Positions 25,479-63,865 of a DNA stretch of 64,000 nt are shown here, piece by piece (the first letter of the stretch is position 1; each line of letters begins with the position of its first letter). Position numbers and translations under genes: made by a program. Under the pieces are notes generated by a model. It saw nothing but the letters and a program-made list of their open reading frames with translations, had not been told where the DNA came from and did no database searches. Source of the stretch: Cladocopium goreaui. Taxonomy: Eukaryota > Sar > Dinophyceae > Suessiales > Symbiodiniaceae. Location: assembly GCA_947184155.2 (NCBI GenBank), contig CAMXCT020001402.1, forward strand, positions 68,463 to 132,462, read 5' to 3'.

Positions 25479-25920
25479 GTTTTTTTGTGAGGCAGCTCAA
25501 ATGGTAGCAACTTTAGGGTCGGGAATGGTACAGAACAACTGGGAAGAGTCAATGTGTTAGACTTGTTAAACAGGTGGTAGTGCAACTTCAGCTGTTTGTG
25601 TGAGCATTGAGATATATTGAGATATATTGAGGTATATAATGGTGGTGGATTTGCATGACAAGTTGTATTTGCCTACATGTCAGTGCGGAGTATGTATGTT
25701 TTGGGCGATCATGCGCTTTTCATTTGGCAAGACTGACGAATCTGTCCCACAGACATGCACAGCAATGTGTATTTCTCAATCAGGAGATTGCTGCATTTCT
25801 GAAATCTCATGAGTATTTGGTGAAAGACTTTCCCAGTCTGATTGAACATGTGCGAACTAGCTGTTTGGCTGTGAGGTCTACAAGTCTACAAGGTAGTTTT
25901 GGACAAACAAATCTCAAGCA

Positions 25921-27586: not shown

Positions 27587-27789
27587 AGTGGCAGCTTCGC
27601 GGTATAGATTTCTCTTAAGCTACCTAGATTTTCGGTGAATTTTCAGTTTTTGGCTGTGCAATTCTGGCCTCAAGCCAAGTGCCTACATTGCAGTTTGACA
27701 GCCAATCAAACCCTGCAGCCTCTGCTAACGCTTCTAAGTGTCGCATGCTTGAAAATGATGCGTCGACTTGTATGAATTGAGATGTGCTT

Positions 27790-27793
27790 GGAG

Positions 27794-27836
<43 letters not shown>

Positions 27837-27928
27837 AGAGAGAGAAGAGAGAGAGAAGAGAGAGAGAAGAGAGAGAGAAGAGAGAGAGAGAAGAGAGAGA
27901 GAAGAGAGAGAGAAGAGAGAGGGAGGGA
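27790..27928. repeat. GA microsatellite in ferredoxin spacer 4-5
   Basis: GAGAGAGAAGA runs of about 140 bases at the same place in the spacer as the tracts near 24,110, 25,355 and 26,625. Confidence 0.9.
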
Positions 27929-28364
27929 GACAGCGAGCAGTTTTTTTGTGAAGCAGCTCAAAATGGTAGTAACTTTAGGGTCGCAAATTGTATAGAAAAA
28001 CTGGGAAGAGTCAATGTGTTAGACTTGTGATGCAGGTGGCACTTCAACCTCAGCTGGTTGTGTGAGCATTGAGATATATTGAGGTATATAATGGTGGTTG
28101 ATTTGCATGACAAGTTGTATTTGCCTACATGTCAGTGTGGAGTATGTATGTTTTGGGCGATCATGCGCTTTTCATTTGGCAAGACTGACGAATCTGTCCC
28201 ACAGACATGCACAGCAATGTGTATTTCTCAATCAGGAGATTGCTGCATTTCTGAAATCTCATGAGTATTTGATGAAAGACTTTCCCAGTCTGATTGAACA
28301 TGTGCGAACTAGCTGTTTGGCTGTGAGGTCTACAAGGTAGTTTTGGACAAACAAATCTCAAGCA

Positions 28365-28862
28365 ATGGCTTCTCAGTCTCGTGTGCTGCCTGTCTTGGTG
28401 GTTGCGGCCTGCTGTGCGGCCCTGCTGCGCAGCTTCTTGGCCCCCGGCGCAGACACCTTTGTGGCACCTCAGCAGAGTGTCCACTTGGGCTGCAAGGCCT
28501 TGTCCAAAGGCGCATTGGCAGCAGGCGATGTGCCAGCCATCGTGAACACTGTGCCCGCTCGCCCCGGAGTGCCAGCCCACTTCAAGGTGACCCTCGAGAC
28601 CCCTGATGGCACGCAGTCCTTCGAGTGCCCTGAGGACGTGTACATCCTGGATCAGGCTGAGGAGGAAGGCTTGGAGTTGCCCTACTCCTGCCGTGCTGGA
28701 TCTTGCTCCAGCTGCGCTGGCAAGGTGCTTGAAGGCAGCATTGACCAGAGCGACCAGGCGTTCTTGGATGACGACCAGATGGGCGAGGGATTCTGCCTCA
28801 CCTGCGTCACCTATGCCACCTCTGATGTGACCATCAAGACCCACTGTGAGGATGAGCTTTGA
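28365..28862 (+). CDS. petF: Plastid 2Fe-2S ferredoxin precursor, copy 5 of 9
   Basis: Val10, and Gly instead of Ser at residue 28. It also carries several silent changes not seen in other copies (for example GTCCACTTG for GTGCACTTG, and GAAGGC for GAGGGC). It is the switch point of the array: the spacer before it is class I and the spacer after it is class II. Confidence 0.95.
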
Positions 28863-29306
28863 AGTGGCAGTTCGATTATGACAGTCTCACCACACGAGTT
28901 TTCCTCTGGGTTTCTTCACCATGGATTTCTGGCCTAACGCCAAGAGCCAGGAGTACAGTCTGACAAAATGACCACTATGCAGTGTGAATCTCTTGCCGGC
29001 ATTTTCAACGCCGAAACAAATTGAGCGCGCGGTGCAGCTTACTGTACTGAAAGTAGCCTACTGAAAGTGAGAAAGGGAGTTGTTTGTGATTTTGCCCCAT
29101 TTTCCCACAGTTGACTTTTTGCGAGGTCATTGATTTTCCTGCTTAAAGCCTTGTCCATGCGGTCTCAGAAACGTTTTTGTGGAAGAGACACCTTTAAGTC
29201 TTCGATTGTTGGCATTCGTGTGGACGGTGTGTGAAGTGAAGCAAGACTGCAGAGAATTTTGGCTGTGAGGTCTACAAGGTAGTCTTGGACAAACAAATCT
29301 CAAGCA
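28863..29306. other. Ferredoxin spacer, class II
   Basis: It begins AGTGGCAGTTCGATTATGAC and contains GGCCTAACGCCAAGAGCCAG and GCCTTGTCCATGCGGTCTCA. By eye it matches the spacer at 32,338-32,781 throughout, so the two 942-bp start-to-start segments (copy 5 to 6, copy 8 to 9) are recent duplicates. It shares with class I only the first bases after the stop and the block before the ATG. Confidence 0.9.
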
Positions 29307-29804
29307 ATGGCTTCTCAGTCTCGTGTGCTGCCTTTCTTGGTGGTTGCGGCCTGCTGTGCGGCCCTGCTGCGCAGCTTCTTGGCCCCCAGCGCAGACACCT
29401 TTGTGGCACCTCAGCAGAGTGTGCACTTGGGCTGCAAGGCCTTGTCCAAAGGCGCATTGGCAGCAGGCGATGTGCCAGCCATCGTGAACACTGTGCCCGC
29501 TCGTCCCGGAGTGCCAGCCCACTTCAAGGTGACCCTCGAGACCCCTGATGGCACGCAGTCCTTCGAGTGCCCTGAGGACGTGTACATCCTGGATCAGGCT
29601 GAGGAGGAAGGCTTGGAATTGCCCTACTCCTGCCGTGCTGGATCTTGCTCCAGCTGCGCTGGCAAGGTGCTTGAGGGCAGCATTGACCAGAGCGACCAGG
29701 CGTTCTTGGATGACGACCAGATGGGCGAGGGATTCTGCCTCACCTGCGTCACCTATGCCACCTCTGATGTGACCATCAAGACCCACTGTGAGGATGAGCT
29801 TTGA
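29307..29804 (+). CDS. petF: Plastid 2Fe-2S ferredoxin precursor, copy 6 of 9
   Basis: Phe at residue 10, in the middle of the hydrophobic targeting stretch, a state shared only with copy 9. The mature domain is unchanged. Confidence 0.95.
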
Positions 29805-30007
29805 AGTGGCAGTTCGACTATGGCAGTCTCACCACACGAGTTTTCCTCCGGGTTTTCTTCACCATGAATTTCTGGCCTAACGCCAAGAGCCAGGAGTACA
29901 GTTTGACAAAATGACCACTATGCAGTGTGAATGTCTTGCTGGCATTTTCAACGCCTGAAAAGTTTTAGCTTGTAGTGCAACTTACTGAAAGTAGTTGAAA
30001 GTAATCT

Positions 30008-30475
30008 GTTCCCCCTAATACTACCCCCTCCCCAAATAATAAACACCTCAGGTAGTTTTGTTATTAGGGGTATTTAATTATTCGGGTGCGAAGCTTCCCC
30101 CTAATACTAAATTAAAAACATTTAAAAACCCTAATATAAAAAACATTTTTTCTATTTCAAAATCGATTAGATTTCCTTTTAAAATCTAATTAACATATTG
30201 CCAGAAATTGGATTTCGAAGCTTTCCCCTAATATTAAATTAAACACCTACTTTTGTTTCTACCTTAAAAGACGGACCCTAATAAAAAACACCCCAGGGTT
30301 TACTAGTTTTTATTATTAGGGGGTGAAACCCTGAAATTGTAGCTTCATTTTTAAATTGTTTTCTAAAGGATATCAATAAAAAATCAAATTGGCCAACCTC
30401 AAATTTTCCAAAAATGGAGACGGACCCTAGTTTTTTTTTTATTTGGGGGGTTAAGGAATAGAGGGAAGGGATTAA
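30008..30475. mobile_element. AT-rich insertion in ferredoxin spacer 6-7
   Basis: Other class II spacers run directly from ACTGAAAGTAG into CCTACTGAAAGTGAGAAAGG. Here about 470 bases are inserted between these landmarks, which accounts for the longer start-to-start distance (1,434 instead of 942). The insert has many copies of CCCCTAATA and its complement TATTAGGGG, plus ACACCCCAGGGTTT. No coding capacity; its type is unknown. Confidence 0.65.
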
Positions 30476-30740
30476 CCTACTGAAAGTGAGAAAGGAGTTG
30501 TTTGTGACTATGCACCATGTTCCCACAGTTGACTTTTTGCGAGGTCATTGATTTTCCTGCCTAAAGCCTTGTCCATGCGGTCTCAGAAACGTTTTTTTTA
30601 ACAGTGGAAGACGTGGAAGAGACACCTTTAAGTCTTCGATTGTTGGCATTCGTGTGGATGGTGTGTGAAGTGAAGCAAGACTGCAGAGAATTTTGGCTGT
30701 GAGGTCTACAAGGTAGTTTTGGACAAACAAATCTCAAGCA

Positions 30741-31238
30741 ATGGCTTCTCAGTCTCGTGTGCTGCCTGTCTTGGTGGTTGCGGCCTGCTGTGCGGCCCTG
30801 CTGCGCAGCTTCTTGGCCCCCAGCACAGACACCTTTGTGGCACCTCAGCAGAGTGTGCACTTGGGCTGCAAGGCCTTGTCCAAAGGCGCACTGGCAGCAG
30901 GCGATGTGCCAGCCATCGTGAACACTGTGCCCGCTCGTCCCGGAGTGCCAGCCCACTTCAAGGTGACCCTTGAGACCCCTGATGGTACGCAGTCCTTCGA
31001 GTGCCCTGAGGACGTGTACATCCTGGATCAGGCTGAGGAGGAAGGCTTGGAATTGCCCTACTCCTGCCGTGCTGGATCTTGCTCCAGCTGCGCTGGCAAG
31101 GTGCTTGAGGGCAGCATTGACCAGAGCGACCAGGCGTTCTTGGATGACGACCAGATGGGCGAGGGATTCTGCCTCACCTGCGTCACCTATGCCACCTCTG
31201 ATGTGACCATCAAGACCCACTGTGAGGATGAGCTTTGA
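30741..31238 (+). CDS. petF: Plastid 2Fe-2S ferredoxin precursor, copy 7 of 9
   Basis: Val10, and Thr instead of Ala at residue 29. Silent changes such as GATGGTACG and CTTGAGACC are shared with copy 8 only. Confidence 0.95.
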
Positions 31239-31520
31239 AGTGGCAGTTCGCTAGGCAGTCTCACCACACGCATTTCCTCCGGGTTTTCTTCACCATGGAG
31301 TTTCTGGCCTAACGCAAAGCCAGGAGTACATCTGACAAAATGACACACTATGCAGGTGAGATGCTCTTGCTGGCGTTTTCAACGCCGAAACAATAATGAG
31401 CGTGCGGGGCAGCCTTACGGTACTGAAAGGAGCCTACTGAAAGTGAGAAGGGATTGGGTTTGTTATTTTGCCATTTTTCCCCACGTCGACTTTTTGCGAG
31501 TTCATTGATTTTTCCTGCCT
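31239..31520. other. Error-rich class II ferredoxin spacer
   Basis: It aligns to the class II spacer but with an unusual number of one-base gaps and changes (TTCGCTAGGCAG for TTCGATTATGACAG, ACGCAAAGCC for ACGCCAAGAGCC, GACACACTATGCAGG for GACCACTATGCAG). This pattern looks more like unpolished long-read consensus than evolution. Confidence 0.55.
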
Positions 31521-31522
31521 AG

Positions 31523-31561
<39 letters not shown>

Positions 31562-31664
31562 AAAAAAACAAGGAAAAAAAAAAAAAAAGAAAAAAAAAAA
31601 AAAAAACAAACAAAAAAAAAAAACAAAAAACAAAGAAAAGAAAACCAACAAAAAAAAAAAAAAA
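31521..31664. repeat. A-rich tract of about 145 bases in a ferredoxin spacer
   Basis: Almost only A with scattered C, G and T, inserted where the other class II spacers read TTTTCCTGCCTAAAGCCTTG. It may be an expanded run of A, a retroposition scar, or an assembly artefact next to the error-rich stretch before it. Confidence 0.85.
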
Positions 31665-31839
31665 GCCTTGTCCATGCGGTCTCAGAAACGTTTTTTTAAA
31701 CAGTGGAAGACGTGGAAGAGACACCTTTAAGTCTCCGATTGTTGGCATTCGTGTGGACGGTGTGTGAAGTGAAGCAAGACTGCAGAGAATTTTGGCTGTG
31801 AGGTCTACAAGGTAGTTTTGGACAAACAAATCTCAAGCA

Positions 31840-32337
31840 ATGGCTTCTCAGTCTCGTGTGCTGCCTGTCTTGGTGGTTGCGGCCTGCTGTGCGGCCCTGC
31901 TGCGCAGCTTCTTGGCCCCCAGCACAGACACCTTTGTGGCACCTCAGCAGAGTGTGCACTTGGGCTGCAAGGCCTTGTCCAAAGGCGCACTGGCAGCAGG
32001 CGATGTGCCAGCCATCGTGAACACTGTGCCCGCTCGTCCCGGAGTGCCAGCCCACTTCAAGGTGACCCTTGAGACCCCTGATGGTACGCAGTCCTTCGAG
32101 TGCCCTGAGGACGTGTACATCCTGGATCAGGCTGAGGAGGAAGGCTTGGAATTGCCCTACTCCTGCCGTGCTGGATCTTGCTCCAGCTGCGCTGGCAAGG
32201 TGCTTGAGGGCAGCATTGACCAGAGCGACCAGGCGTTCTTGGATGACGACCAGATGGGCGAGGGATTCTGCCTCACCTGCGTCACCTATGCCACCTCTGA
32301 TGTGACCATCAAGACCCACTGTGAGGATGAGCTTTGA
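31840..32337 (+). CDS. petF: Plastid 2Fe-2S ferredoxin precursor, copy 8 of 9
   Basis: Protein identical to copy 7 (Val10, Thr29), and the same silent changes are present, so copies 7 and 8 are the youngest pair by this test. Confidence 0.95.
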
Positions 32338-32781
32338 AGTGGCAGTTCGATTATGACAGTCTCACCACACGAGTTTTCCTCTGGGTTTCTTCACCATGGA
32401 TTTCTGGCCTAACGCCAAGAGCCAGGAGTACAGTCTGACAAAATGACCACTATGCAGTGTGAATCTCTTGCCGGCATTTTCAACGCCGAAACAAATTGAG
32501 CGCGCGGTGCAGCTTACTGTACTGAAAGTAGCCTACTGAAAGTGAGAAAGGGAGTTGTTTGTGATTTTGCCCCATTTTCCCACAGTTGACTTTTTGCGAG
32601 GTCATTGATTTTCCTGCTTAAAGCCTTGTCCATGCGGTCTCAGAAACGTTTTTGTGGAAGAGACACCTTTAAGTCTTCGATTGTTGGCATTCGTGTGGAC
32701 GGTGTGTGAAGTGAAGCAAGACTGCAGAGAATTTTGGCTGTGAGGTCTACAAGGTAGTCTTGGACAAACAAATCTCAAGCA

Positions 32782-33279
32782 ATGGCTTCTCAGTCTCGTG
32801 TGCTGCCTTTCTTGGTGGTTGCGGCCTGCTGTGCGGCCCTGCTGCGCAGCTTCTTGGCCCCCAGCGCAGACACCTTTGTGGCACCTCAGCAGAGTGTGCA
32901 CTTGGGCTGCAAGGCCTTGTCCAAAGGCGCATTGGCAGCAGGCGATGTGCCAGCCATCGTGAACACTGTGCCCGCTCGTCCCGGAGTGCCAGCCCACTTC
33001 AAGGTGACCCTCGAGACCCCTGATGGCACGCAGTCCTTCGAGTGCCCTGAGGACGTGTACATCCTGGATCAGGCTGAGGAGGAAGGCTTGGAATTGCCCT
33101 ACTCCTGCCGTGCTGGATCTTGCTCCAGCTGCGCTGGCAAGGTGCTTGAGGGCAGCATTGACCAGAGTGACCAGGCGTTCTTGGATGACGACCAGATGGG
33201 CGAGGGATTCTGCCTCACCTGCGTCACCTATGCCACCTCTGATGTGACCATCAAGACCCACTGTGAGGATGAGCTTTGA
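32782..33279 (+). CDS. petF: Plastid 2Fe-2S ferredoxin precursor, copy 9 of 9
   Basis: Protein identical to copy 6 (Phe10); one silent change (GAGTGAC for GAGCGAC) was noticed. Class II sequence follows for about 160 bases and then stops near 33,440, which marks the 3' edge of the array. Confidence 0.95.
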
Positions 33280-51410: not shown

Positions 51411-51844
51411 TCCGACCGCAAGGTCCCCCCCCTTCTATTTGCAAGCTATTGGCAGCATTTCTGAGGTCCAGCCTCGTATTTGCTAGGTTTTTGCAGCGAT
51501 TCTGACTACCAGCCTCGCATTTACTAGGTACATGCTACCTTTTAGGCGACCTACGTGCGAACACGCCCACACCAACGGGCGCAGCTGCTTTTGCTCGCAA
51601 AGAGTCTCGCGGTAAGCGGAGCTACGTTCGCTACTCCTAGCCAACCAAGTCGCGCAACCCTTGTGGCGCAACTTGAGCCAAAATAGAAGTGAAACAACTG
51701 TACAACATGCAACACGAAAAACTACGGGGCAGACCTAAGCTACATCTAATGGCATACCACACTCGCCCCTCAGCTTAGGCTGCCCGCGCTGATGCCGCGA
51801 ATCGCAGGCACCAGCCGCGAGGCAGGGCACGTCCCTCGCCTCAT
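51411..51844 (-). other. 3' flank of the retroelement ORF
   Basis: GC-richer than the DNA beyond it, so it probably belongs to the element. It contains two related units of about 40 bases (TACTAGGTACATGC and ATTTGCTAGGTTTTTGC type, near 51,478 and 51,530). No sequence here was found again at the other end of the element, so no long terminal repeat could be shown. Confidence 0.45.
51672..51684 (-). other. Possible relic of the dinoflagellate spliced leader
   Basis: On the minus strand these 13 bases read ATTTTGGCTCAAG, identical to the 3' end of the conserved 22-nt dinoflagellate spliced leader. The bases before it do not match further. It stands downstream of the stop codon of the long minus-strand ORF. 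Confidence 0.4.
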
Positions 51845-54800
51845 TTATGCCGCGCCTTCGTGATCTTCGATCGTGATCCCTCCTTCATAGATTTCCTCGA
51901 AGGCGCGCAGCCACTTCTTGGCTGTTTCACTCTCCTGAGAGATCTCGAGCGCCACCCCAGCCTCATAGTTGGCCTTCGATGAGGTCGTAAGATTGCAGCT
52001 CCCCACGACCAACTGAACCGGAGAGCGCCGATCTTCCCGGTCGGTCTGCACATACGCAGACTTCCCGTGCTGTAGGCCGCGCAATTTGCGCCCCAGCCTC
52101 ACGGACCTATTGTCCCGTTCATAGGCCTGACTGACATTGAGTCCTTCCGTCAGCCTGACTCGCACACCAGACGATCTCAGTTCCTTCAGCATCTGGAGCT
52201 GCGTCTTGGTCTTTCCAGCGGCTTGCGAGCGATCTGCGACGACCATCGTCAGGCAACCCCTCTCGGTTGCTTGTTTCAGGCTATTGATCACATCTGGCTG
52301 ATCAAAAGAGTAAGCCCGAACCAGCACACGGCCGCCCTTCCCCACGGACTCCAAGACTTGGACGAGCCAGTCAAAGGTTTCAGCGTCACGCAGGAACTTG
52401 ACCCTGCATCGGTCCATATCATCGCTCTCAGCCTTATCCTTCAAGGCCTTAGGTCGGGGAACGGCAACTGATCCAGCTTCAAGAGCTGTCGTTGGCTCAT
52501 CCACGTTGCTCCCTCGACCGCTGTCCAAACTCAGGGACTCCTTGATGACCTTTCTTTTGAAGTCTTGGGCGTCCTCAATCGCATTTGTCTGCGGAGGAGC
52601 TTCTGTGCCCTTCAGGGTCTTCGCCTTTTCCACAAGCCCTTGGAAACAGCTCCCCAAGCCGAGACCCATGGACTTCCTTGGCCGATCCTCACTTCCGCCC
52701 ATTGCCGCGATGCCACGAGCAGCAGCACTCGAGGATGACCCGGCGCCGACCATCTTCCGATGGGCTGCCACTGCGGACGCCACATGGTCGCACGTCCCAG
52801 AGGCCAAGTATTGGCGGCAAGCGCAACCAGAGCTGTTGCCACTGACTCGGACTCTATGATCTTTCTTCGTTCCTCTCACTTGCCAGGTCGAAGAGGTACC
52901 ATCGAAGCTCAGCAGCCGGGGCTCCATAGAGTTGCCATTGGTCATATGGACCCAGGCATTTGCCATTTTTCGAGATACCCACCAACATGCCAAAACGGCA
53001 AGCACGACCTTTCCGATCCTAAAACCAGTTTCAACGAAGGATGCTACTTCCTCTCCACCTTCCGCGATCACCACTTGGAACGCTTCTGAACTGGTCTCCA
53101 CAATTTCTTCTATCTCAATCTGAACCTTTCGCACAACCGGGGCCAAAAAGGCGGCTATGACCAACCCTAGCTTGTTGGCCGATAGCCCATTGCCATTGTC
53201 CGCATGGGCCTTCTTGTTGCGAGCCTTCCGCGACACAGACCAACCAGAGCGCCGGCGCTTCTTGGTCGATCTCTTCCTCCTGGTCGCGCGAGGGCTGCGA
53301 AACGCAAGCCCCGCCGCTGACCCAGCAGACCCGGCCCTCTCCCTTTTCTTATGGCCCTCGCTCTTGTGGCGCCTCCCGGCTCGCTTGCGGTGGCCGCGGA
53401 GTTTGAGCGCCTTCTTCTGAGCCAGAAACTCTTCGTTGGCCTTCCTCACGGCCTCCGACTCCTGGCGAACTTCCTCCTCCGAGGAATCCTCTTGAGAAGG
53501 ACGGGGATAACTGCATTTATAGCACTTAAACCTGAAGGACAGGTTCCCTTTTCCGCAGTGATCACAGTCCCATGACTTCTCCTTAAGGATCTGTTCGATC
53601 TTGGTTACCCCCGCGTCTCTCTTGGCTTTCCTTTTCTCTGCTGCAGGCAATGCGGACTGAGCGGGGCGAGCCGACGCAAGATGCCGGCAATCGCGGTCGT
53701 ATGTGCCAGTGCACTGCGACCCGCTGACCCAACCGACGCATTCATTAGCATCGGGAGGACTAACTGTCCCACAGAGCCTGCAAACCCAACTTCCTGCCTT
53801 GTAGGTGAGTTCACCCAATCCATCATCTATATTCCATGCGGCCCCGACAGCTAACCTTGGAGCCGCAGCAGCTGGTGCGGCTAGTCTGCGCTGAGCATCT
53901 CCCAGTTGGACTCCCTTCCGGTGGTCCTTTGCTCGGAGCCGCGACCTCAACTGCTTTTTGAGCTTCCGGACTGGTTCTTCGGCCCGGAGTCCCGCGGCAA
54001 ACCGGCTATCGGCGTTAGGCACGGGTGCGCGCATTGGGCCCGAAGCTCTTGCCGCAGCAAGCCGTGCACTAGTTTCGGCAGAAGCCTCGGCAACGTCCCG
54101 GCCATAGTCTTGTGCCTCACCGGCTGCCTCATCTCTGCCTGATCTTTTGCGCACAGCCGCAGACACCGTCGCGCTACCGGCTATCACACGGAGGCGGCGT
54201 TGGAGCTCATCTTCTCCACCCACGGTCGGACGCTCCTGCTGCTTTTCGACCAAAGTGGTCAGTCCCCCGGCACTCCCGTACTGGTAGGTCAGTTCTGAAG
54301 TAGCAGCAGCAGCCAGAGTCGTCTCTATGAGCCGCTGGCCCGGATGCCGTCGGGGTTCGGCCCACACTTCGCGGAGCTCCTCAGCCGTCATCTCCCCGCG
54401 CAATTTATTCGCAGGTGTCTCATCCTTGTTCTCTGGGAGGACTCCGCGGCCAGATCGCGGAAACGCAGACCCGGCCCGCGGCAGGTCCCCCTCGCGGCTA
54501 GGTCGCGAAAGCGCCGACCCGGCCCGCGATGGCTCTTCTTCAACTTCGATTTCTTCCATAGAGCTACTGCTCGGGGCGGCCTCCTTTTTTGCGCCACTCT
54601 TCGGAGAGGCGACTTCCTTCTTTGCACTGGCAGGGGGCTCTTCTTCCACGGTGATCTCCTCATCAGTGCTACTGCTGGACGCCGTCGAGGTCTCCTGCTT
54701 TACTTCAGCAGTCTCCTGCTTTACTTCACAAGCAGATGACGACGCGGCCCCTTCTCCATCCGCTGGAGCGCTCCGCGCAGGACCACGTATGACCCTGATC

Positions 54801-57800
54801 GACAAGCTCGATTCAGAATCACTTGTGGGCAGCTCTGCAGGCGTGAACCCACGATCTCGTGTCCAGAGAACCTCGCCCTCCTTTCCTAGCGCACTGTCAA
54901 AGACACTAATGCGGAGGATACACTGCTTTGGCACATCATCGGTCAGGACGACGTTGTCACCACCGAGCCGCATTCCGATTCGGTGCGCTCGTAACGTCCC
55001 CACTGTGGTTATGGCAGCGACGTCTGTGCCGCTCCTGACCCCTGACTTTTGCCCTTCCTTGCCGATTGCATTTGCCGCCCAGTGACAGAACAGCCTGTTG
55101 ACCGTCATGTCTCCACCTCCGCCTGCCTTCAGGCCATCATAGCCGATCAGGACCACCCGATCCCGGAACGTCCCATGGACGAGAACGGTGTCGTCGCCAA
55201 ACGGCAGATCCTGATCGTCTATGAAGTCTTCGCGGGTAAGCCCGCTGTCAGTGGAATGTCCTTGGCCCGCACGGATGAACTTCCCATCTCTGCTCAGCTC
55301 TGCGCGCCGTTTCTTCCGGCCATCGCCTTCCACCCAGGTCACCAGGTCGACGATGTCCTTTTCTTGGACTCCAAAAGCCCTTGCAACTTCACTGACTTCC
55401 ACCCAGCCATCCTGCTGGAGTTTGCCTCGCAACTTGTGGCCGCCGTACTTCGATCGGCAGCTCCCGTGCCGCAGGGCCTTGACCATGAGGAACTCCAAGT
55501 CATCCCAGTTGTGGCGGGGATCTCTCTGGGCTTGCTTTCCCTTCTGCTTTCCCCAGCCTTTGTTGCGGCGGCCGCCCCCGCCGCCCATAGTCCGAAGCAC
55601 GCGGACAGGTCGCGAAACGCAGACCCGTCCCGCGAAGCTAGCAAAGGTCCTTATGTCCTTGCTCGCGCTTCTAGCCGCAAAAGCCTGAACGCACCGACCC
55701 AGCCAAAACCCGGCCGCGCGTCCAAAGCCAAACGGCTGCGGAAAACAACCCCATATTAACCAAGTAAGGGGGGACCTAATGCTACCCCTGCTACATGTAG
55801 AGGAAACCCCTTTACCCCAGTGGTTAGAACCCTTCTCCCGCATCCTAGAGTGAAACACCCCTTCGGACCGCGGGCGAGTCGGGTGGTTGTGATCCGACTC
55901 TTTTTCATCGTGCTTCGACTTGGCGACACTCAGCCCGTCCGGCCTCACACCTAGAGCTTCCAAGGCTTCTGGGGCCGGCTGGCCGACCACGACTGGCGTT
56001 CGCTTCATGGCTTCCTTGATTTCGGCATCGTGTTCTTCATCAGACATCATAACTCCGTCAACAACCCTACCTGTCCTAACCGTAAGGTCGTCAACGTAAG
56101 CAATCCATTCCTTTGCGAACCGTTGTTTCCGGCCCCGACCTGGCTCATAAGCCCTGTCCACAACGTAGCAGAAATCATCCGGCCCATTGATGGGTCCGAA
56201 CGTCAGGCACACGGGCAGAAACTTGCCTGACCGGGCCACGATGGCCAGGACTTCCATGGCCCTTCGAGTGTTCTCTATTTGGTTGAAACCGGTCACCGCG
56301 TCCACAAAAGAGAAGAATATAGAGCCGCTGCACTGAGCCAAAACATCCGTAGCCTTTCTGCAGTAGTACGTGGATCTTTTGACTCTCGCATTAACCTTCC
56401 GGTAATCAACCACCAGCCGCCGCTTGCGGGACTTCTTGTGAGCGGGTGCTTCCTTAGTAGGAAAAGGAGGCGATCCCCAAGGACTCGCCCCTCGGATCAG
56501 CTGTCCCCGCTGAACTTCTTCTTCAAGCCGCTCGTCGACCCACGCAGCACTCTCTCCCTTGAGCGAATGCGGTTGAAGACTCACGGGGGGTCCTGTTGGA
56601 ACGCAATCATGGGCAACACCACGCACAGTAGTGCGAGGGCTACCTTCCAACCAAAACCCAGCGGCTTTCCGTAGCAAGACTTCCCTGCAAGCTGCGATAT
56701 CATCGGCGTTGAAGTCGGGATGTTTCGAGAGGACATTTTCTCCAAATCCTAGTCCTTCAACGACTGCTTTCCTGTAGGACTCCTCCCTACGAGGATCCTT
56801 GTCGACCTTTTCCCCACTCAGCCGATAGACCGACAGGTCAGACTTGACCTCGTCCCACTGCTCCGCCTTTGCTCGACCGTCCCACAACTGAGCCATGCGG
56901 GCCGAAAGGTCGACTAACTCCTTCTCGATTGCTTCTCTTTCACTGGCCGTCAACTCACTGCTGACGTTCACGTCGGGATCGGGGATCTGGACATCAACCA
57001 AGCCACCATCCGCCCGCTTCTCTGCGACCGAATCAGGAAAACCTTGACTCGATCCGCTAGAGGAAGCGAACACTAGGCCGCTTCCAGCTGAAGCTGCTGG
57101 GGCACCCTTTAGTGCCACTTCGGCAGAACTCCAATAAGCATCACAAAAAACGCTCGGGCGAACAACTTCCTTATCCCCCGCGCCTGCCCAGTGCCCCTTC
57201 CTATCATCAGAGCGGACCTCAGAAGAAATCCGGGTTGCTCGGTGCGGATGCACAGTCGGGGCCAGAGAATCCGGTCGACGGCAACGCAGGCTGCACGACG
57301 AAAGGTCCATGTTTGATAACCATAATTCTCCGTCTTCCGCTACCCAACCATACTGGCACGCGTCGGTCCGAATTCCCGACCATGGGCGTCTTGGCTCTGA
57401 GAGGCTCCCGCAAAGCTCCACGAGCTCCTTTCTGCGGAAGATAGCGCTCCCGACAGGACCTCCCAGCGACCCAAAACGACCTTTCCTTTCCTGCTCCTTC
57501 AACACAGAGACAGCATGGCGCAGTATGGCCTGATCTGAATCTAAGAAACGCCCCTGTCCCGACCGATCGTGAAGTCCAGAAGGCAATCCCACATGGACAA
57601 CTCCAGGCTCAAGCCACTGAATCAAGAGGTCGACAAGGCAGCGATCTTCTTCTCTGGCCAAATCCCATCGGCGCCCGTAAGAAAAGCAATTCTGACCCAA
57701 AGGCGGCGCCGCCAAGAACCCTGCTCGACGCGCAGCCGCAGAGAGTCCTTTGCGGTCAACATGAATTTCTAAAAACGCGACCTTGCGAGCTTTGTGACTC

Positions 57801-60800
57801 TCGAGCCAGTCCCTCAATCGTGAAGCTTCTTGGTCCAAAATTGGGAACATAGGAACAGGAACACCCTCAGCCTCAAACAGCTCGGCCAGGAGCACACCCA
57901 GCTGATTCCACTGGTCAGTCCCCGGCTCTTGAACCAAGGAAGCTACCCGCTCTTCGAAAAGGCGGTAGCCAGCCTTGTCCAATTTGCGGCTTGTGCTGGC
58001 TGCGAGGACTCCGTCCCTTGATATATCTGCCTTCGTGACCACTTCCTTGAGTTTGATTCTTTCGATCACGGGCCTAGTTCCGTTCTCCTCCACGGCTCCT
58101 TCTTCGTTTAAAAACGCCAAAACCCACTTGACCCTGAATGACCCAGTGACAGGGCGGTACTTGTGAACCCCAATCATGCCCTCATCAACTGAAACTTGCG
58201 TCACTCGGCCAAAATGGCAAACCTTGTGCCCCTTCGTGTAAGCCACCACGTCACCAATTCTGAGCACAAATTCTCGGCCACGGCGCTGCATGACGAATTC
58301 CCTTGGTTCGCCTTCGCCCTTCAGACGTTGCCCTAAGGACGGCGCTTCGTCAGGCGGGCCGTCATCCAACAAAACTTCAGCTTGGGGATTAGGACCCTCC
58401 GCGTCCACATCGGCAGGAACCAAAACACAATCTTCTGCATGGGCTTCGACTGAACGGTGCGAGGGATCTTGAACGGAGCGGAGAACAAGGCGATTTCCCC
58501 TAACTTCCGTGATCTCCCATGGCCCGGTCAGACCTCTTTTCCAAGGGACTCGCCCCGCCCCCTCTGGCCGTGCCAGGGGTGATTGCCAAACCACACGGTC
58601 GCCAATGTGAAGATCAAGGCTTCTCCGGTAACGGTTGGCGAGCTTGGCTCTGGCAGCTGAGGCGTTTTCCCAGTGCCTTTTGATCTTCGTACTCAACTTG
58701 GCAAAAGTCTCAAATTGTTTCCTTGCCCATTCGCTCACTGGTTCAAACTGCAGACTTTCACGGATAAGGTCCTTTTCCAAATCCAAACTGAGAGACCATG
58801 ATCTTTCAAGGTCCCTGGGCGTATAACCATGCGCCCCCGGACTGTTATCCAGAATGTACTCCACAAGAGGGAGAAGCTCCGACCATTCGTCTGTCTCCCC
58901 TCGCACCACCTCCTTAATGATGATGTGGAGCGTCTTCTGCACCTCCTGATGCATGCGTTCATTGGAGCCCGTTTCGCAGGGTCGCATGCTCATAGCAAAC
59001 TTCTGCTTGGAACCAAGACCCATAAGAGCGCAGAATTCTGCCATCATTGCATTCTTAAATTCGGGCCCCCTGTCGCTACGAACCAACGTCGGGACCGTTC
59101 GCGCCCGAAAAATGCAGCGAGCGAAGGCCCTCCTGACCTCCGCGTGCGTGAGAGACCGCAACGGTTCAATCTGCACCGCGTGAGACAGGCAATCCAAATA
59201 GGTGAGGGTGTACCTGAAACCCCACCGATCTTCCCTGTTCGGTCCTTCACAATCGACCGAGACTTCTTGCCAACACGCGTCCGCCAGGCATCTAGACGCC
59301 TGCGCAGTAACCTTCGTCGGTCTCCCTCGCGCCTTCAAGCAGATAATGCACCTTTCTGTCCATTTCTGAATGTCTTGGTTCATTCCCGGCCACCAAACCC
59401 TGCGGCTAAGAAGATTCCATGTACGATCGGCCGACCGGTGGCCCCCAATCGCTCCGCTGTGGGCCTGGTCGAAACACGATCTACGCCAGGTCAGCCCGTG
59501 CGATGTCACAAATCCGATTGGGACCACACAAGCCCAGACCTTCTCTCCTGTTTCCAAGATGACAGACCTTTCCAGAAGTCCGTCCGACGCGACTCGGAAC
59601 GGGTCCCCTGGCCGTCGAAAGTGGCCTGCCAGAGACGCGTCCTTCTTCTGCGCATCATACCAGAGGCTTCGAAGCGAACCGGTCACTTCGAATTCTGCGA
59701 TTCCCGCCCCGACCCTTGCTTCTAGGGCCAGTTCCTCCCTGGACGGGATCACTTCTTGCTCTCCCAGAGCACCGACTTGCACGTCCTCCGCACCAACCCA
59801 CTGAGGGAGGATCCAGAACTTGGACCTCATATGAAGAATCAGCCTCCAATTCCAAGACCTTCCAAGGAACGCGATAGTAGGTTTTGGACCTGACTCATTG
59901 ACCTTGATTTTGCGTCCCAAGGTAATTGGAAGCCAATATCCGCCCCCAGTTTGTAGCTGGAACGCCACAAGCACTCTTTTTCCGGCCAAATCTCTTCGGT
60001 GACCGATGGAATCCGTCCCGTTTCCATCGTCCCACTTGGCCACTCCCGTTGGCGCCCCGAGCAATGATATCAACCGTTGGAAGTCATCCTTCCAATCCAA
60101 CTTTGGCGTCGCCGCTTCCCACAGCCGCGTACAAACGCCAAAGACAAGCTTGAGATGATTGTGCCAATTGACTTCGTGGAGCTCCCATCCAGGAGAAATT
60201 GATTCCAAACGGCCCATCTCAGCACAATTATGAACCGTTGTGACGGAGGCGTCCGGGTTCACACACCACGTGATCCCATACTGGTAGCCCTTTCGTTCCC
60301 CGGGGAAAACTGGCAAGGTGAACTCCTGCCCCGCATTCCACTTCTTTCCCGCGACTACTCCTAGTCCGCGAGGAAGCTCGACGAAGCCTTCGGATCCGTT
60401 GGACGCAAACCATCCGGCCGCCCATTTCCGGATTAAACCAACATGGACAATACAACTCCTCAGATCATCACTGGAGCATGGAGCGGAGGCGATCGCCAGA
60501 AGATCCTCCGCAACCAGCTCTTCTTCGGCTTCTTTCTCCTCTGTAGGATTTTCCCTCTCTTCAGCAGCAGCAGCAAATTCCTCTGCGGCTTCCTTTTCGA
60601 TGCAAGTGACGCACCGACTGAAGACGTACGCTCGCTTTCCGCAAGCACAACGCCCTTCGTGTTCCCATACTTCGCGGCCAGGTTCGCGGGCCAGACTAGC
60701 TAGAGGAGGCTCTGCCAGACCCTTGATCAAGCCAAGCTGAAGAATCTCGGTCACTTGCCTGACTTCTTCCTCCTTCGGAATCTTCGTGACGATTCCATAC

Positions 60801-61972
60801 CCGCGCACCAGCGGCATAGGGAATTCTCGTTTGACTTCAGGGCAGGAGCTGGCCAGCAACTCCGGGCTAGGCTTCACCTTCCACATTCGCGGGTTCACCG
60901 ACCACACAGCCTTCAGCCCTGCCCAACCGGACACTACCTTTTTGATCTCCTCCCGCTGCAGATTTCTTGCCTGCAGAGTCACCTCGACCATGAGAGGGAA
61001 TCGCAGCAAGCACACAATGAGGCCTCCTTGCCCCATGCCAACCACGAAATCCGGCAGATGATAACCAATACTTCGAAGCACAGTCGCGCATGAGGTCAGC
61101 ATGTCAACACGCGCGCGCTTCACCTGACGCTCACCTTTCAGCGCCGCTGTAGCACCATCTACGTGAGACCCGTTGCCGTCATCATCTTCGAATGCCCCAT
61201 AGACTGCATGGGTTGAAACCTTCCAGCCAGGCATGGACCGAGAGATCCCTTCCTGGACCTGACTGATCTGGAGGACATTATCACTCTGATTAGCGTAGTC
61301 GGCCACGAAAAGAACCTTCAAGTGGTTTCCCAACGACCCCTCGGCAACCCCGGCTATAGTCGCGCGGTGCTCCGAACCGGAAACACCGCCGCTGACCACC
61401 GCTGCGGAGTTCTCGCCATCAGAAGGGCCATTGGCCGGCAACACATCATCGCCTACAGCCCAAGCCACTGGAACCGTTGGATCTTCCGTGCCTCCTCCCA
61501 AATACTCTTCCAGATTGAATCCCCTGAGATGACCAGAAAGCCCTTGCAGGTCCCGCGTCCTTCCTTGAAGCAATTCATCCCGATCCTTAGGGTTTCTCGA
61601 GAATCCGTCCCCTAACTTGGCACTTCTCCCGCTCAAGGATCGGATCTCAGACCCATCCGCCAGGATCTCAGCCACCCACCTCACGAGCTTCACATCTGAG
61701 CCTATCTCGATGTGCTGAGAACGCATGGGATTGGCGTGATCTGTCCAGCACAGTGTCCTAACTGAGCCGAACGTTTTGCGGGTCGCCCTTTTGACTTCCA
61801 GTTGGGCGTAAGCTTCCTGCACCAAGGCCTGCTGGGGCGCCGTAAGGCTCCGCGAATGCGTAAGCAAGATTTTCATTCTGCTCAAATCGCGCGTCATCTG
61901 AAGGGCGTCATCTGAAGGACTGTCCCCCCGACCGCGATCCCAGACGCGTCGGCGATCTGCTCCAAAGGACAA
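51845..61972 (-). CDS. Giant retroelement polyprotein: RNase H, integrase, RT (catalytic half), KptA, zinc fingers, PLD nuclease
   Basis: One open frame of 3,375 codons; its first Met is arbitrary because the frame continues the ORF at 61,894-62,844 across a frameshift. Order of parts: rest of RNase H (to about residue 130, TDH 77-79); unassigned region; integrase zinc finger (H838 onward) and core (D907, D967, E1005); unassigned region; RT fingers and palm (VVDYR 1854-1858, D1891, YVDD 1959-1962); KptA (about 2154-2360); Ser/Glu-rich linker; RanBP2-like fingers (from W2729 and W2801); hydrophobic segment; SWIM finger (C3050, C3052, C3061, H3063); PLD domain (HGK at 3302, GSCN at 3324). RT and integrase indicate a Ty3/gypsy-type element. 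The RT halves are in permuted order. Residues 2129-3375 start with Met (MGGGGGRRNKG) and could be an independent 1,247-residue ORF. No gag or protease was recognised. Confidence 0.85.
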   Translation of the reverse strand: MSFGADRRRVWDRGRGDSPSDDALQMTRDLSRMKILLTHSRSLTAPQQALVQEAYAQLEVKRATRKTFGSVRTLCWTDHANPMRSQHIEIGSDVKLVRWVAEILADGSEIRSLSGRSAKLGDGFSRNPKDRDELLQGRTRDLQGLSGHLRGFNLEEYLGGGTEDPTVPVAWAVGDDVLPANGPSDGENSAAVVSGGVSGSEHRATIAGVAEGSLGNHLKVLFVADYANQSDNVLQISQVQEGISRSMPGWKVSTHAVYGAFEDDDGNGSHVDGATAALKGERQVKRARVDMLTSCATVLRSIGYHLPDFVVGMGQGGLIVCLLRFPLMVEVTLQARNLQREEIKKVVSGWAGLKAVWSVNPRMWKVKPSPELLASSCPEVKREFPMPLVRGYGIVTKIPKEEEVRQVTEILQLGLIKGLAEPPLASLAREPGREVWEHEGRCACGKRAYVFSRCVTCIEKEAAEEFAAAAEERENPTEEKEAEEELVAEDLLAIASAPCSSDDLRSCIVHVGLIRKWAAGWFASNGSEGFVELPRGLGVVAGKKWNAGQEFTLPVFPGERKGYQYGITWCVNPDASVTTVHNCAEMGRLESISPGWELHEVNWHNHLKLVFGVCTRLWEAATPKLDWKDDFQRLISLLGAPTGVAKWDDGNGTDSIGHRRDLAGKRVLVAFQLQTGGGYWLPITLGRKIKVNESGPKPTIAFLGRSWNWRLILHMRSKFWILPQWVGAEDVQVGALGEQEVIPSREELALEARVGAGIAEFEVTGSLRSLWYDAQKKDASLAGHFRRPGDPFRVASDGLLERSVILETGEKVWACVVPIGFVTSHGLTWRRSCFDQAHSGAIGGHRSADRTWNLLSRRVWWPGMNQDIQKWTERCIICLKARGRPTKVTAQASRCLADACWQEVSVDCEGPNREDRWGFRYTLTYLDCLSHAVQIEPLRSLTHAEVRRAFARCIFRARTVPTLVRSDRGPEFKNAMMAEFCALMGLGSKQKFAMSMRPCETGSNERMHQEVQKTLHIIIKEVVRGETDEWSELLPLVEYILDNSPGAHGYTPRDLERSWSLSLDLEKDLIRESLQFEPVSEWARKQFETFAKLSTKIKRHWENASAARAKLANRYRRSLDLHIGDRVVWQSPLARPEGAGRVPWKRGLTGPWEITEVRGNRLVLRSVQDPSHRSVEAHAEDCVLVPADVDAEGPNPQAEVLLDDGPPDEAPSLGQRLKGEGEPREFVMQRRGREFVLRIGDVVAYTKGHKVCHFGRVTQVSVDEGMIGVHKYRPVTGSFRVKWVLAFLNEEGAVEENGTRPVIERIKLKEVVTKADISRDGVLAASTSRKLDKAGYRLFEERVASLVQEPGTDQWNQLGVLLAELFEAEGVPVPMFPILDQEASRLRDWLESHKARKVAFLEIHVDRKGLSAAARRAGFLAAPPLGQNCFSYGRRWDLAREEDRCLVDLLIQWLEPGVVHVGLPSGLHDRSGQGRFLDSDQAILRHAVSVLKEQERKGRFGSLGGPVGSAIFRRKELVELCGSLSEPRRPWSGIRTDACQYGWVAEDGELWLSNMDLSSCSLRCRRPDSLAPTVHPHRATRISSEVRSDDRKGHWAGAGDKEVVRPSVFCDAYWSSAEVALKGAPAASAGSGLVFASSSGSSQGFPDSVAEKRADGGLVDVQIPDPDVNVSSELTASEREAIEKELVDLSARMAQLWDGRAKAEQWDEVKSDLSVYRLSGEKVDKDPRREESYRKAVVEGLGFGENVLSKHPDFNADDIAACREVLLRKAAGFWLEGSPRTTVRGVAHDCVPTGPPVSLQPHSLKGESAAWVDERLEEEVQRGQLIRGASPWGSPPFPTKEAPAHKKSRKRRLVVDYRKVNARVKRSTYYCRKATDVLAQCSGSIFFSFVDAVTGFNQIENTRRAMEVLAIVARSGKFLPVCLTFGPINGPDDFCYVVDRAYEPGRGRKQRFAKEWIAYVDDLTVRTGRVVDGVMMSDEEHDAEIKEAMKRTPVVVGQPAPEALEALGVRPDGLSVAKSKHDEKESDHNHPTRPRSEGVFHSRMREKGSNHWGKGVSSTCSRGSIRSPLTWLIWGCFPQPFGFGRAAGFWLGRCVQAFAARSASKDIRTFASFAGRVCVSRPVRVLRTMGGGGGRRNKGWGKQKGKQAQRDPRHNWDDLEFLMVKALRHGSCRSKYGGHKLRGKLQQDGWVEVSEVARAFGVQEKDIVDLVTWVEGDGRKKRRAELSRDGKFIRAGQGHSTDSGLTREDFIDDQDLPFGDDTVLVHGTFRDRVVLIGYDGLKAGGGGDMTVNRLFCHWAANAIGKEGQKSGVRSGTDVAAITTVGTLRAHRIGMRLGGDNVVLTDDVPKQCILRISVFDSALGKEGEVLWTRDRGFTPAELPTSDSESSLSIRVIRGPARSAPADGEGAASSSACEVKQETAEVKQETSTASSSSTDEEITVEEEPPASAKKEVASPKSGAKKEAAPSSSSMEEIEVEEEPSRAGSALSRPSREGDLPRAGSAFPRSGRGVLPENKDETPANKLRGEMTAEELREVWAEPRRHPGQRLIETTLAAAATSELTYQYGSAGGLTTLVEKQQERPTVGGEDELQRRLRVIAGSATVSAAVRKRSGRDEAAGEAQDYGRDVAEASAETSARLAAARASGPMRAPVPNADSRFAAGLRAEEPVRKLKKQLRSRLRAKDHRKGVQLGDAQRRLAAPAAAAPRLAVGAAWNIDDGLGELTYKAGSWVCRLCGTVSPPDANECVGWVSGSQCTGTYDRDCRHLASARPAQSALPAAEKRKAKRDAGVTKIEQILKEKSWDCDHCGKGNLSFRFKCYKCSYPRPSQEDSSEEEVRQESEAVRKANEEFLAQKKALKLRGHRKRAGRRHKSEGHKKRERAGSAGSAAGLAFRSPRATRRKRSTKKRRRSGWSVSRKARNKKAHADNGNGLSANKLGLVIAAFLAPVVRKVQIEIEEIVETSSEAFQVVIAEGGEEVASFVETGFRIGKVVLAVLACWWVSRKMANAWVHMTNGNSMEPRLLSFDGTSSTWQVRGTKKDHRVRVSGNSSGCACRQYLASGTCDHVASAVAAHRKMVGAGSSSSAAARGIAAMGGSEDRPRKSMGLGLGSCFQGLVEKAKTLKGTEAPPQTNAIEDAQDFKRKVIKESLSLDSGRGSNVDEPTTALEAGSVAVPRPKALKDKAESDDMDRCRVKFLRDAETFDWLVQVLESVGKGGRVLVRAYSFDQPDVINSLKQATERGCLTMVVADRSQAAGKTKTQLQMLKELRSSGVRVRLTEGLNVSQAYERDNRSVRLGRKLRGLQHGKSAYVQTDREDRRSPVQLVVGSCNLTTSSKANYEAGVALEISQESETAKKWLRAFEEIYEGGITIEDHEGAA
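51890..52400 (-). other. Phospholipase-D-like nuclease domain
   Basis: VLVRAYSFDQPDVINSLKQA, a middle strand TMVVADR, then HGKSAYV (the H-x-K of an HKD motif) and VVGSCNLTTSSKANYEAGVA (the GS-N-T and NYE motifs) match the PLD-nuclease subfamily. Only one HKD half is present, as in single-motif family members that dimerise. Confidence 0.75.
52770..52830 (-). other. SWIM-type zinc finger
   Basis: GCACRQYLASGTCDHVASAV gives C-x-C-x8-C-x-H, the SWIM pattern. It follows a hydrophobic stretch (VVLAVLACWWV) that could be a membrane segment. Confidence 0.6.
53510..53800 (-). other. Two RanBP2-type zinc fingers
   Basis: WDCDHCGKGNLSFRFKCYKC fits W-x-C-x2-C-x3-N-x6-C-x2-C exactly. An upstream finger, WVCRLCGTVSPPDANEC, is looser. 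Fingers of this class often bind single-stranded RNA. Basic Lys/Arg-rich sequence follows. Confidence 0.75.
54898..55516 (-). other. KptA/Tpt1 RNA 2'-phosphotransferase domain
   Basis: Enzymes of this family move the 2'-phosphate left by tRNA ligation onto NAD+. Visible signatures: LMVKALRHG with the Arg-His pair (R2168, H2169); GWVEVSEVARAFG; KFIRAGQGHSTDSG (QGHS from residue 2237); LVHGTF; GLKAGGGGD followed by NRLFCHWA; and GGDNVVLTDD near the end. All main blocks are present in family order, so the domain looks complete. Its presence in a retroelement frame is unusual. Confidence 0.85.
56010..56480 (-). other. Reverse transcriptase, fingers and palm
   Basis: RRLVVDYRKVNARVK (strand before the palm), FFSFVDAVTGFNQI (first catalytic Asp, D1891) and EWIAYVDDLTV (YVDD, D1961 and D1962) appear in the normal order and spacing. 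The connection and thumb part that should follow is not downstream; it is found in the ORF at 61,894-62,844. Confidence 0.85.
56990..57810 (-). other. Unassigned region between integrase and RT half
   Basis: Contains KVAFLEIHVDRKGLSAAARR, VDLLIQWLEPGVVHVGLPSG and WSGIRTDACQYGW. The layout (a hydrophobic strand, then a PSG where cytosine-5 methyltransferases have PPC) recalls methyltransferase-like segments, but the key Cys is missing and the assignment is only a suggestion. Confidence 0.3.
58430..59480 (-). other. Integrase: zinc-binding, DDE core and C-terminal part
   Basis: The HHCC finger is seen in HSGAIGGH followed by CIICLKARG. The core has D907 (VDCEGP), D967 (SDRGPEFKN) and E1005 (NERMHQE), with 37 residues between the last two. 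GYTPRDLERSW and GDRVVWQSP are typical of the C-terminal side in gypsy-type integrases. All three catalytic acids are present, so the domain looks intact. Confidence 0.85.
61650..61900 (-). other. RNase H domain, second part
   Basis: SLTAPQQALVQEAYAQLEV and LCWTDHANPMR match the RNase H segment of gypsy elements (the TDH motif). SGRSAKLGDGFSRNP corresponds to the end, where elements usually have a D-x-LSR motif. The first Asp of the domain lies in the upstream ORF (ADAS). Confidence 0.7.
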
Positions 61973-62844
61973 AGACCAGCAATGGCCCCAGCTTCGTCGA
62001 AAATCGACAGTTCAATTGCCTTGGACATCATCTGCTTGATGGCCTTGACAGCGCGGCACCCTTCTGTATCGGCGCTGCCCAGACCACCCTCCGGAAATGG
62101 CGCTCCAGGTTTCTGATACTTGGAGAGCACCTTGGCGCAGTGCCCAAATTCTGCCGGCAGATACGTCCGCAGCCAGTTAGTACATCCCAAAAATTGTTGG
62201 ATGTGGAGCTTCTCCTTCAACGGCGCGAAGTCGCTGACAGCCTGGGACCGCTCCGGATCTGGAGCAGTCCCGTGCCTGCCCACCAAATGGCCAAGCAACC
62301 TGCCGCCCGTGCTGCAGAGCTCTGCCTTGGCCACGCCGTAACTGAAACCAAAGATGATGCTTTTGTCTAAAAAGGCTTCTAAAGAAACCAAGTGGTCAAG
62401 GAGAAAGCGGTTCGCCTCCGGATACCGCCTGCTCAGTGATTTCCGCAATTCTCCATAATAGAAGTCCGTTGGAGTGGCCTCAGCCATTTTCTCGATTCCT
62501 CCCGGCACCTCGACTATGTGGCAGACGGGCTCAGTGATAGTCGATCTCCAGGGAGTCTCATCCCCTCTGAAAGACTTGTCGAAGAAACGAGTCTCTCCGA
62601 CCCACTGACGGCCTTTGAAAACCCAGGGATCACTCGATCTCGTATCTTCCCATTTTAGTGGTTCCCCGGTCAGAAACTGACCGACAGTCACGCGTCGCTG
62701 CCCGACCGCTGTGACCTCACCTGGAAAATCAGTGCTTGAAATCTGGAAAAGCTCCTCACGAGGCCTTTCGTGAACTCGCACCCATCCACCACCTAGACAA
62801 TCCAACAGCGCCCAAGGGACATGAGGATCAACATGTGGCATCAT
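61894..62844 (-). CDS. Retroelement ORF: RT connection region and start of RNase H
   Basis: 316 codons. After about 130 unrecognised N-terminal residues comes the part of a gypsy-type pol that follows the palm: VAKAELCSTGGRLLGHLVGR (the FLGH motif, 183-186), IQQFLGCTNWLRTYLP (214-230), and LEQIADASGIAVGGTVLQ, the start of RNase H with its first Asp at 299. It stops at TGA 61,894-61,896, just after a 14-bp tandem duplication. The frame on the other side of the duplication continues RNase H. No palm with YVDD exists upstream; that half lies about 6 kb downstream. Confidence 0.8.
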   Translation of the reverse strand: MMPHVDPHVPWALLDCLGGGWVRVHERPREELFQISSTDFPGEVTAVGQRRVTVGQFLTGEPLKWEDTRSSDPWVFKGRQWVGETRFFDKSFRGDETPWRSTITEPVCHIVEVPGGIEKMAEATPTDFYYGELRKSLSRRYPEANRFLLDHLVSLEAFLDKSIIFGFSYGVAKAELCSTGGRLLGHLVGRHGTAPDPERSQAVSDFAPLKEKLHIQQFLGCTNWLRTYLPAEFGHCAKVLSKYQKPGAPFPEGGLGSADTEGCRAVKAIKQMMSKAIELSIFDEAGAIAGLCPLEQIADASGIAVGGTVLQMTPFR

Positions 62845-63291: not shown

Positions 63292-63865
63292 CAATGAGGG
63301 TTTACATACGACCCGTGCTCGTTTACCATAGGCATCGGTAGGGTTTAAGCGACCAATGGTCGGCGCCTGCCAACATGAGGGTTTACATACGACCCGTGCT
63401 CATTTACCACAGACATCGGTAGGGTTTAAACGACCAATGGTCGGCACCTGCCAACATGAGGGTTTACATACGACCCGTGCTCATTTACCACAGACATCGG
63501 TAGGGTTTAAACGACTAATGGTCGGCGCCTGCCAACATGAGGGTTTACATACGACCCGTGCTCATTTACCACAGACATCGGTAGGGTTTAAACGACCAAT
63601 GGTCGGCACCTGCCAACATGAGGGTTTACATACGACCCGTGCTCATTTACCACAGACATCGGTAGGGTTTAAACGACCAATGGTCGGCACCTGCCAACAT
63701 GAGGGTTTACATACGACCCGTGCTCATTTACCACAGACATCGGTAGGGTTTAAACGACCAATGGTCGGCACCTGCCAACATGAGGGTTTACATACGACCC
63801 GTGCTCCTTTACCACAGACATCGGTAGGGTTTAAACGACCAATGGTGGGCACCTGCCAACATGGG
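63292..63865 (+). repeat. 81-bp tandem repeat, about seven units
   Basis: CAACATGAGGGTTTACATAC recurs at steps of about 81 bases (63,371, 63,452, 63,533). The units are nearly identical, with GGCGCC/GGCACC as the main variant. As 81 is 27 codons the plus strand stays open with a 27-residue repeat (HTTRAHLPQTSVGFKRPMVG and so on), which is probably not a protein. Confidence 0.9.

Follow-up and report, generated by a model that had tools for sequence, protein, structure and literature searches.

A KptA/Tpt1-type RNA 2'-phosphotransferase domain lies in the frame of a retroelement in the dinoflagellate Cladocopium goreaui, within a stretch of 64,000 nucleotides, here called the window (assembly GCA_947184155.2, contig CAMXCT020001402.1, positions 68,463 to 132,462). 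The frame is 3,375 codons long and on the minus strand (51845..61972), as are all features of the element below that have a strand. It encodes, in order, the remainder of an RNase H, an integrase, a conserved region, a reverse transcriptase (RT) palm, a spacer, KptA, a RanBP2 finger, a SWIM-like motif and a PLD nuclease domain. The KptA-RanBP2-SWIM-PLD block almost certainly belongs, as a real part under selection, to a family of Ty3-like retroelements in dinoflagellates. The best explanation as a whole, a selected Ty3-like component whose active KptA clears 2'-phosphates, falls a little short of an even chance.

The KptA domain (54938..55480, residues 2165-2345) matches the Pfam family PTS_2-RNA (PF01885) with 44.7 bits against a cut-off of 26, and the PLD domain (51890..52327, residues 3216-3361) matches PLDc_2 with 33.7 bits against a cut-off of 27. 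Both results uphold an earlier note, made from the DNA letters alone, which had placed a complete KptA/Tpt1 domain and a PLD nuclease in one frame with integrase. A KptA profile (A3) of 17 related rows, one of which lacks the domain, gave 13 PDB matches at E<=1e-8, all of them Tpt1, with yeast 7yw4 the best (1.9e-19) and the remainder at chance level. The AlphaFold model of the window domain (pLDDT, its predicted confidence score, 85.9) likewise matches only Tpt1/KptA structures at E<=0.001 (21 of 21). According to PMC6333775, an Arg-His-Arg-Arg tetrad of Tpt1 contacts the 2'-PO4 and 3'-PO4 of RNA. Read off from KxR and RxH, this tetrad corresponds to R26, H27, R81 and R151 of the window domain, and all four residues occupy columns at least 90% conserved across the 17 rows. 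Its predicted fold and these catalytic residues make it probable that the window KptA has RNA 2'-phosphotransferase activity.

The PLD domain is Nuc/Zucchini-like and has a single HxK motif. Its model (pLDDT 72, with the first 45 residues poorly modelled) matches bacterial Nuc best, then NucT and Zucchini, and other PLD-fold proteins after these. As modelled, it has the catalytic motif and fold of the HKD type: it shares with Nuc and Zucchini the fold, the HxK and GSxN motifs and one HKD half per chain, although its spacing to the Asp departs from the usual HxKx4D and it forms the C-terminal domain of a retroelement protein. The earlier note also named RanBP2-type fingers and a SWIM finger. 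One RanBP2-type finger (53498..53584) has a Pfam match of 15.8 bits, below the cut-off of 27, and the second (53693..53791, about residues 2728-2760) comes from reading the sequence. The SWIM-like stretch CACRQYLASGTCDH (52784..52825, residues 3050-3063) has no Pfam match; it fits the SWIM pattern CxCx(n)CxH and is conserved in homologues.

Upstream of KptA, the integrase H2C2 zinc domain (59327..59485) stands above its Pfam cut-off at 57.9 bits. The integrase core, rve (59018..59230), scores 27.4 bits against a cut-off of 32.6; P0059 is the sole homologue among those scanned with rve above it. The RT palm (RVT_1, VDYRKVN ... YVDD; 56078..56440) scores 18.6 bits, below its cut-off of 29.6, and among six homologous proteins scanned, RVT_1 exceeds the cut-off in P0019 only. 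The conserved domain between integrase and palm (56813..57682) gave no match in a Pfam scan; a methyltransferase-like label for it was considered and dropped.

The block recurs in the same genome. In the 1.17-Gb genome assembly (6,202 contigs), a KptA-PLD search gave 39 matches, with the best 37 of 3,287 candidates scored; the counts are lower bounds. On at least 20 contigs, counting that of the window, the match extends past the KptA stretch 128-323 of the query. At least ten of them, again with the window's, have KptA as well as PLD; identity in the main pieces is 86-100% for five and 41-46% for the other five. The remaining contigs of these 20, at least ten, match parts of KptA-PLD, mostly the C-terminal half, and at least six further ones match query residues 128-323 only. 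The copy C691 (L035), the sole locus outside the window that was read directly, carries RT-KptA-RanBP-SWIM-PLD in the same order, with identities of 99.7% in RT, 96.8% in KptA, 90.5% in the linker, 97.9% in RanBP and 100% in SWIM and PLD.

Proteins from other assemblies tell the same story. An RT plus KptA query found 45 proteins, whose clusters stand for up to 89 sequences. According to domain lists and the scan of six, RVT_1 occurs with KptA in P0013, P0017, P0019, P0020 and P0045 and with PLD in P0009, P0013 and P0028, and their aligned parts are 44-76% identical to the query. Named sources are Cladocopium goreaui for P0010 and Durusdinium trenchii for P0027; by similarity, the remaining homologues are taken as dinoflagellate. 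Viral contigs yielded no relatives of the RT or of KptA-PLD. The loci, C691 and these proteins together support the earlier note's claim that the set belongs to a retroelement; co-occurrence at many loci was a check that it had proposed.

Purifying selection on KptA, also part of the check proposed there, is evident in two comparisons. Between the window and C691, KptA differs by 29.5 synonymous and 8.5 non-synonymous changes, a ratio of non-synonymous to synonymous rates (dN/dS) of 0.09; the ratio is 0.04 for RanBP and 0.25 for the unlabelled integrase-palm domain, and RT, SWIM and PLD are nearly identical. In the ten most diverged of 51 pairs from the copia-type elements described below, dN/dS of KptA is 0.03-0.08, a figure biased downwards because most copies were chosen for intact frames. 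Mean dN and dS there are 0.0086 and 0.194 in 45 pairs and 0.016 and 0.309 in the other six; the C-terminal region is looser, with dN/dS up to 0.15 in the pairs shown. Synonymous divergence between window 51845-58048 and L035 is sharply uneven among domains (KptA 0.17, RT 0, PLD 0.007), which suggests mosaic copies and recombination among element copies.

The RT itself looks permuted. The usual Ty3/gypsy order is RT palm-thumb-RNase H-integrase, and window-type elements depart from it. In a motif scan of the window, P0029, P0033, P0038 and P0059, the palm motifs come only after that of the integrase; P0052, P0060, P0067, P0071 and P0073 have CCCH fingers, thumb and RNase H in succession, with no palm motif before the thumb. 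Pfam scans for this part covered P0052, P0054, P0059, P0060 and P0072, and RT_RNaseH matches follow the thumb-like region in P0052 and P0060. The window frame 51845-61972 carries the palm only, and the thumb and RNase H start, which match P0052 and P0060, lie before the integrase in another frame at the 5' end of the copy (61894..62844), an open frame for which a Pfam scan gave no match. The apparent arrangement is thumb and RNase H before the integrase and palm after it, which, if confirmed in whole copies, would be a structural novelty. Some observations speak against a permuted RT. P0004 has one integrase-pattern match after the palm, in a linker, which is taken as chance; no single homologue among the predicted proteins has both halves, and among the copies seen there is no whole one with both ends.

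How KptA-PLD is joined to the RT varies. The RT end SDHNHPT is invariant in nine aligned rows and is followed by a poorly conserved spacer (55589..55876, from HPTR to KptA), delimited by reading and homologue alignment. P0002 and C691 read with two extra bases in this spacer, and comparison with C691, where the RT and KptA frames differ, places the 2-nt difference that decides frame sharing at 55687..55688. The common frame of the window is apparently one state among others. The continuity of KptA-PLD with integrase and RT described in the earlier note therefore holds in the window without being constant, and KptA-PLD may also be made separately.

This variation allows a quite possible, if not quite probable, alternative, in which KptA-PLD is a captured host mRNA expressed apart from pol through a spliced-leader acceptor, the fused frame being incidental. 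Besides the frame difference in C691, it draws on the spacer, where little is conserved except PQ[PL][FI], a motif that resembles a read-through spliced leader and occurs in 12 of the 22 homologues in which the RT end and the KptA motif are both present. It is followed by GS(K/E) in some homologues and WLQ in others, as from two frames of TTTTGGCTCAAG, and PMC6616646 describes genomic relict leaders that carry CCGTAG with a usable AG. However, the motif is absent from 10 of the 22 homologues (two have PLPF, eight neither), and the frame runs through the spacer without a stop in many homologues, although the query had been picked to include this region. The DNA match of the window to the leader, CCGCAGCCGTTTGGCT (55726..55741), is modest, since 85 of 2000 shuffles score as high, and a plain leader scan allowing up to 3 mismatches found nothing. 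The spliced-leader-like stretch is suggestive only, and it lends the spliced-leader link weak support. Capture of a host mRNA and the best explanation, a selected component with an active KptA, are mutually compatible.

KptA also occurs in other kinds of retroelement in the same genome. In a KptA family search, the best 150 of 1,496 candidates were scored, and every one exceeded the cut-off; since the window's own copy is missing from the 150, they represent a minimum. At least 63 of these matches lie in open frames of more than 2,000 amino acids, and at least 14 in frames of 4,020-4,039 amino acids. Ten of the 14 loci with such frames were fetched, chosen for frame length, and all ten have a single frame (about 4,026 amino acids) between direct repeats of 164-174 bp that are 99.4-100% identical, with TG..CA ends; 5-bp target repeats are plain in five of the ten, and in C491 the second of the two repeats is some 3 kb more distant. 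Scanned in halves, two copies gave matches to CCCH fingers and KptA and weak ones to a protease and to RVT_2, the latter below its cut-off; from these domains and from the domain order the elements are called copia-type. L029, L030, L032 and L033 form a diverged copia-type subfamily.

A further locus, L031, has a 2,622-amino-acid frame with KptA at 94 bits, among matches of about 100 bits. It is called DIRS-like on an RT, an RNase H and a putative C-terminal tyrosine recombinase recognized by eye, with a Phage_integrase Pfam match of only E=0.22. In a 25-row tree the KptA domains separate by element kind, Ty3-like, copia-type and DIRS-like, into three clades (with supports of 100/98 and 100/99); the number of gains is not fixed by it. 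That the DIRS-like KptA has lost a catalytic Arg, taken to be the one in IRAxQGHS, was considered and rejected, as the tetrad arginines of PMC6333775 are those of KxR and RxH, and the DIRS-like rows keep these.

That three kinds of retroelement within a single genome carry KptA suggests a difficulty common to them, one of RNA repair. In the proposed mechanism, element RNA, or an accompanying RNA such as a primer, would be cut and then rejoined by a ligase, with a 2'-phosphate left behind inside the RNA or at its end. This phosphate would block reverse transcription or annealing until the element's KptA takes it off with NAD+ and so clears the way for the RT. The RanBP2 finger and the basic linkers would serve to grip the RNA, and the PLD domain would process its ends by trimming or cutting. 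The simplest common pressure would come from a host enzyme, a ribonuclease or a ligase, with retroelement RNA as its substrate. That clearing 2'-phosphates from element RNA or primer is KptA's job is the leading but tentative assignment, nearer to one chance in three than to an even one. A broader version, in which Ty3-like, Ty1/copia-type and DIRS-like elements each acquired KptA because cutting and religation of their RNA belongs permanently to their life cycle or to a host defence directed at them, and in which the Ty3-like kind also has a permuted RT and a spliced-leader acceptor for a KptA-PLD mRNA, is rather unlikely in full.

If KptA works in this manner, dinoflagellate retroelement RNA passes through a 2'-phosphate state. 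That such different elements carry KptA speaks for a pressure of general reach. The mechanism, if true, would reveal a conflict of RNA cleavage and repair around transposons, and we know of no description of such a conflict for them.

Several findings weigh against the reading of a selected, 2'-phosphate-clearing component. The window and C691 copies are both defective, with truncation, a duplication and, in the KptA-PLD frame of C691, one internal stop. In the copia-type KptA, the tetrad His seems lost by eye, TRGQP or CRGHG replacing LRH, so that not all three kinds may run the same reaction. The idea of a repaired primer is countered by the exact anticodon-arm patterns GACTACGGCTGATAACCGT and ACGGCTGATAACCGT, which had no genome match in a search without a positive control.

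The apparent loss of the His, together with the strong constraint on KptA in those same copies, is also what favours a counter-defence role. There, KptA would mainly ADP-ribosylate RNA or DNA ends, for example by 5'-phosphate capping, or host factors, and so shield the element's nucleic acid from being degraded or sensed; PMC9503650 places KptA in the ADP-ribosyltransferase (ART) superfamily, and the term 5-phospho-ADP-ribosylated turns up along with Tpt1 in reviews. The window type, however, retains the whole tetrad that contacts the two phosphates of RNA in the Tpt1 of PMC6333775, and counter-defence is improbable without being negligible.

Healing of a cut half-tRNA primer could be the specific job of the copia-type KptA. 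Drosophila copia primes with a half-tRNA, and GTTATCAGCCGTAGTC stands directly after the 5' long terminal repeat (LTR) in all ten copies (L009, L011, L013, L015, L017, L019, L021, L023, L025, L027), where it is a possible primer-binding site whose complement resembles an anticodon arm. The empty searches for both anticodon-arm patterns, made without a positive control, tell against such healing, which is very unlikely. That KptA-PLD is a single-copy host gene beside a retroelement, or a misassembly, the outcomes named in the earlier note as refuting its proposal, can be dismissed almost outright despite the truncated window copy without detected LTRs, given the multiple copies with KptA and PLD, the same order at C691 and in other assemblies, and a separate Tpt1 gene, L001, elsewhere in the genome, nearest to mammalian TRPT1. 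A host retrogene beside the retroelement, suggested by P0002 and the spliced-leader-like stretch, was dropped in view of the RT-KptA proteins, the genome matches and C691.

The window copy is imperfect at its 5' end. P0052 aligns to it only from P0052 residue 577 on, stopping at window position 62844, and the part before residue 577 (CCCH fingers onward) has no match elsewhere in the window or within the 8 kb of contig that follow it (L034), so the copy is considered 5'-truncated at about 62844; other domains tried in those 8 kb were not found either. Where one frame gives way to the other, a tandem duplication of 14 bp (61891..61918) shifts the thumb/RNase H start to its other frame. The C691 copy spans about C691 138950 to 145495; its start differs from that of the window copy, and both copies end at the same base (51555; C691 145495), which bounds a 3' noncoding stretch (51555..51844). 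No LTRs were found around either copy, both of them 5'-truncated. A pair with an exact common 3' end, unlike 5' truncations and no detectable LTR is commoner in target-primed insertions.

Compared with known systems, the element resembles Ty3/gypsy (Metaviridae) in its RNase H, H2C2, DDE integrase and RVT_1-type RT, with CCCH fingers preceding RNase H in homologues, and differs in the permuted RT, the C-terminal KptA-RanBP2-SWIM-PLD and the lack of any LTR found. Its KptA shares the predicted fold, sequence profile and Arg-His-Arg-Arg of Tpt1/KptA enzymes, yet is embedded in a retroelement frame instead of being a free enzyme. Free-standing Tpt1 matches of 174-180 bits exist at L001 (C1209), L002 (C5523) and L003 (C1); L003, on a contig of 7.4 Mb, is possibly bacterial.

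PMC5890265 reports that Symbiodinium long interspersed nuclear element (LINE) and DIRS retrotransposons captured a DNA methyltransferase (DNMT). These elements are alike in having a host-type nucleic-acid enzyme, described there as conserved, in several retroelement kinds; they differ in that the enzyme is a cytosine methyltransferase and the carriers are LINE and DIRS. A term search of that paper for KptA and phosphotransferase found neither. PMC9503650 describes a few RNA viruses, a picorna-like virus and a nidovirus among them, whose polyproteins contain KptA; the embedding is similar, and the carriers there are RNA viruses. No report of KptA in a retroelement was found among the papers listed by searches of the open-licence literature; in the two listed that hold both retrotransposon and KptA, the latter is only a Pfam name in gene tables.

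Elsewhere in the window, nine tandem genes for 165-amino-acid ferredoxin-like proteins lie at 23402-33279, identical at 163-165 of 165 residues and spaced 942-1434 bp apart; the one copy scanned matches Fer2 at 76.8 bits, and a Pfam scan of two long minus-strand frames opposite these genes gave no match. Large minisatellite arrays occupy 1826-5885, 15880-17866 and 63294-63863, with units of 55, 31 and 81 bp.

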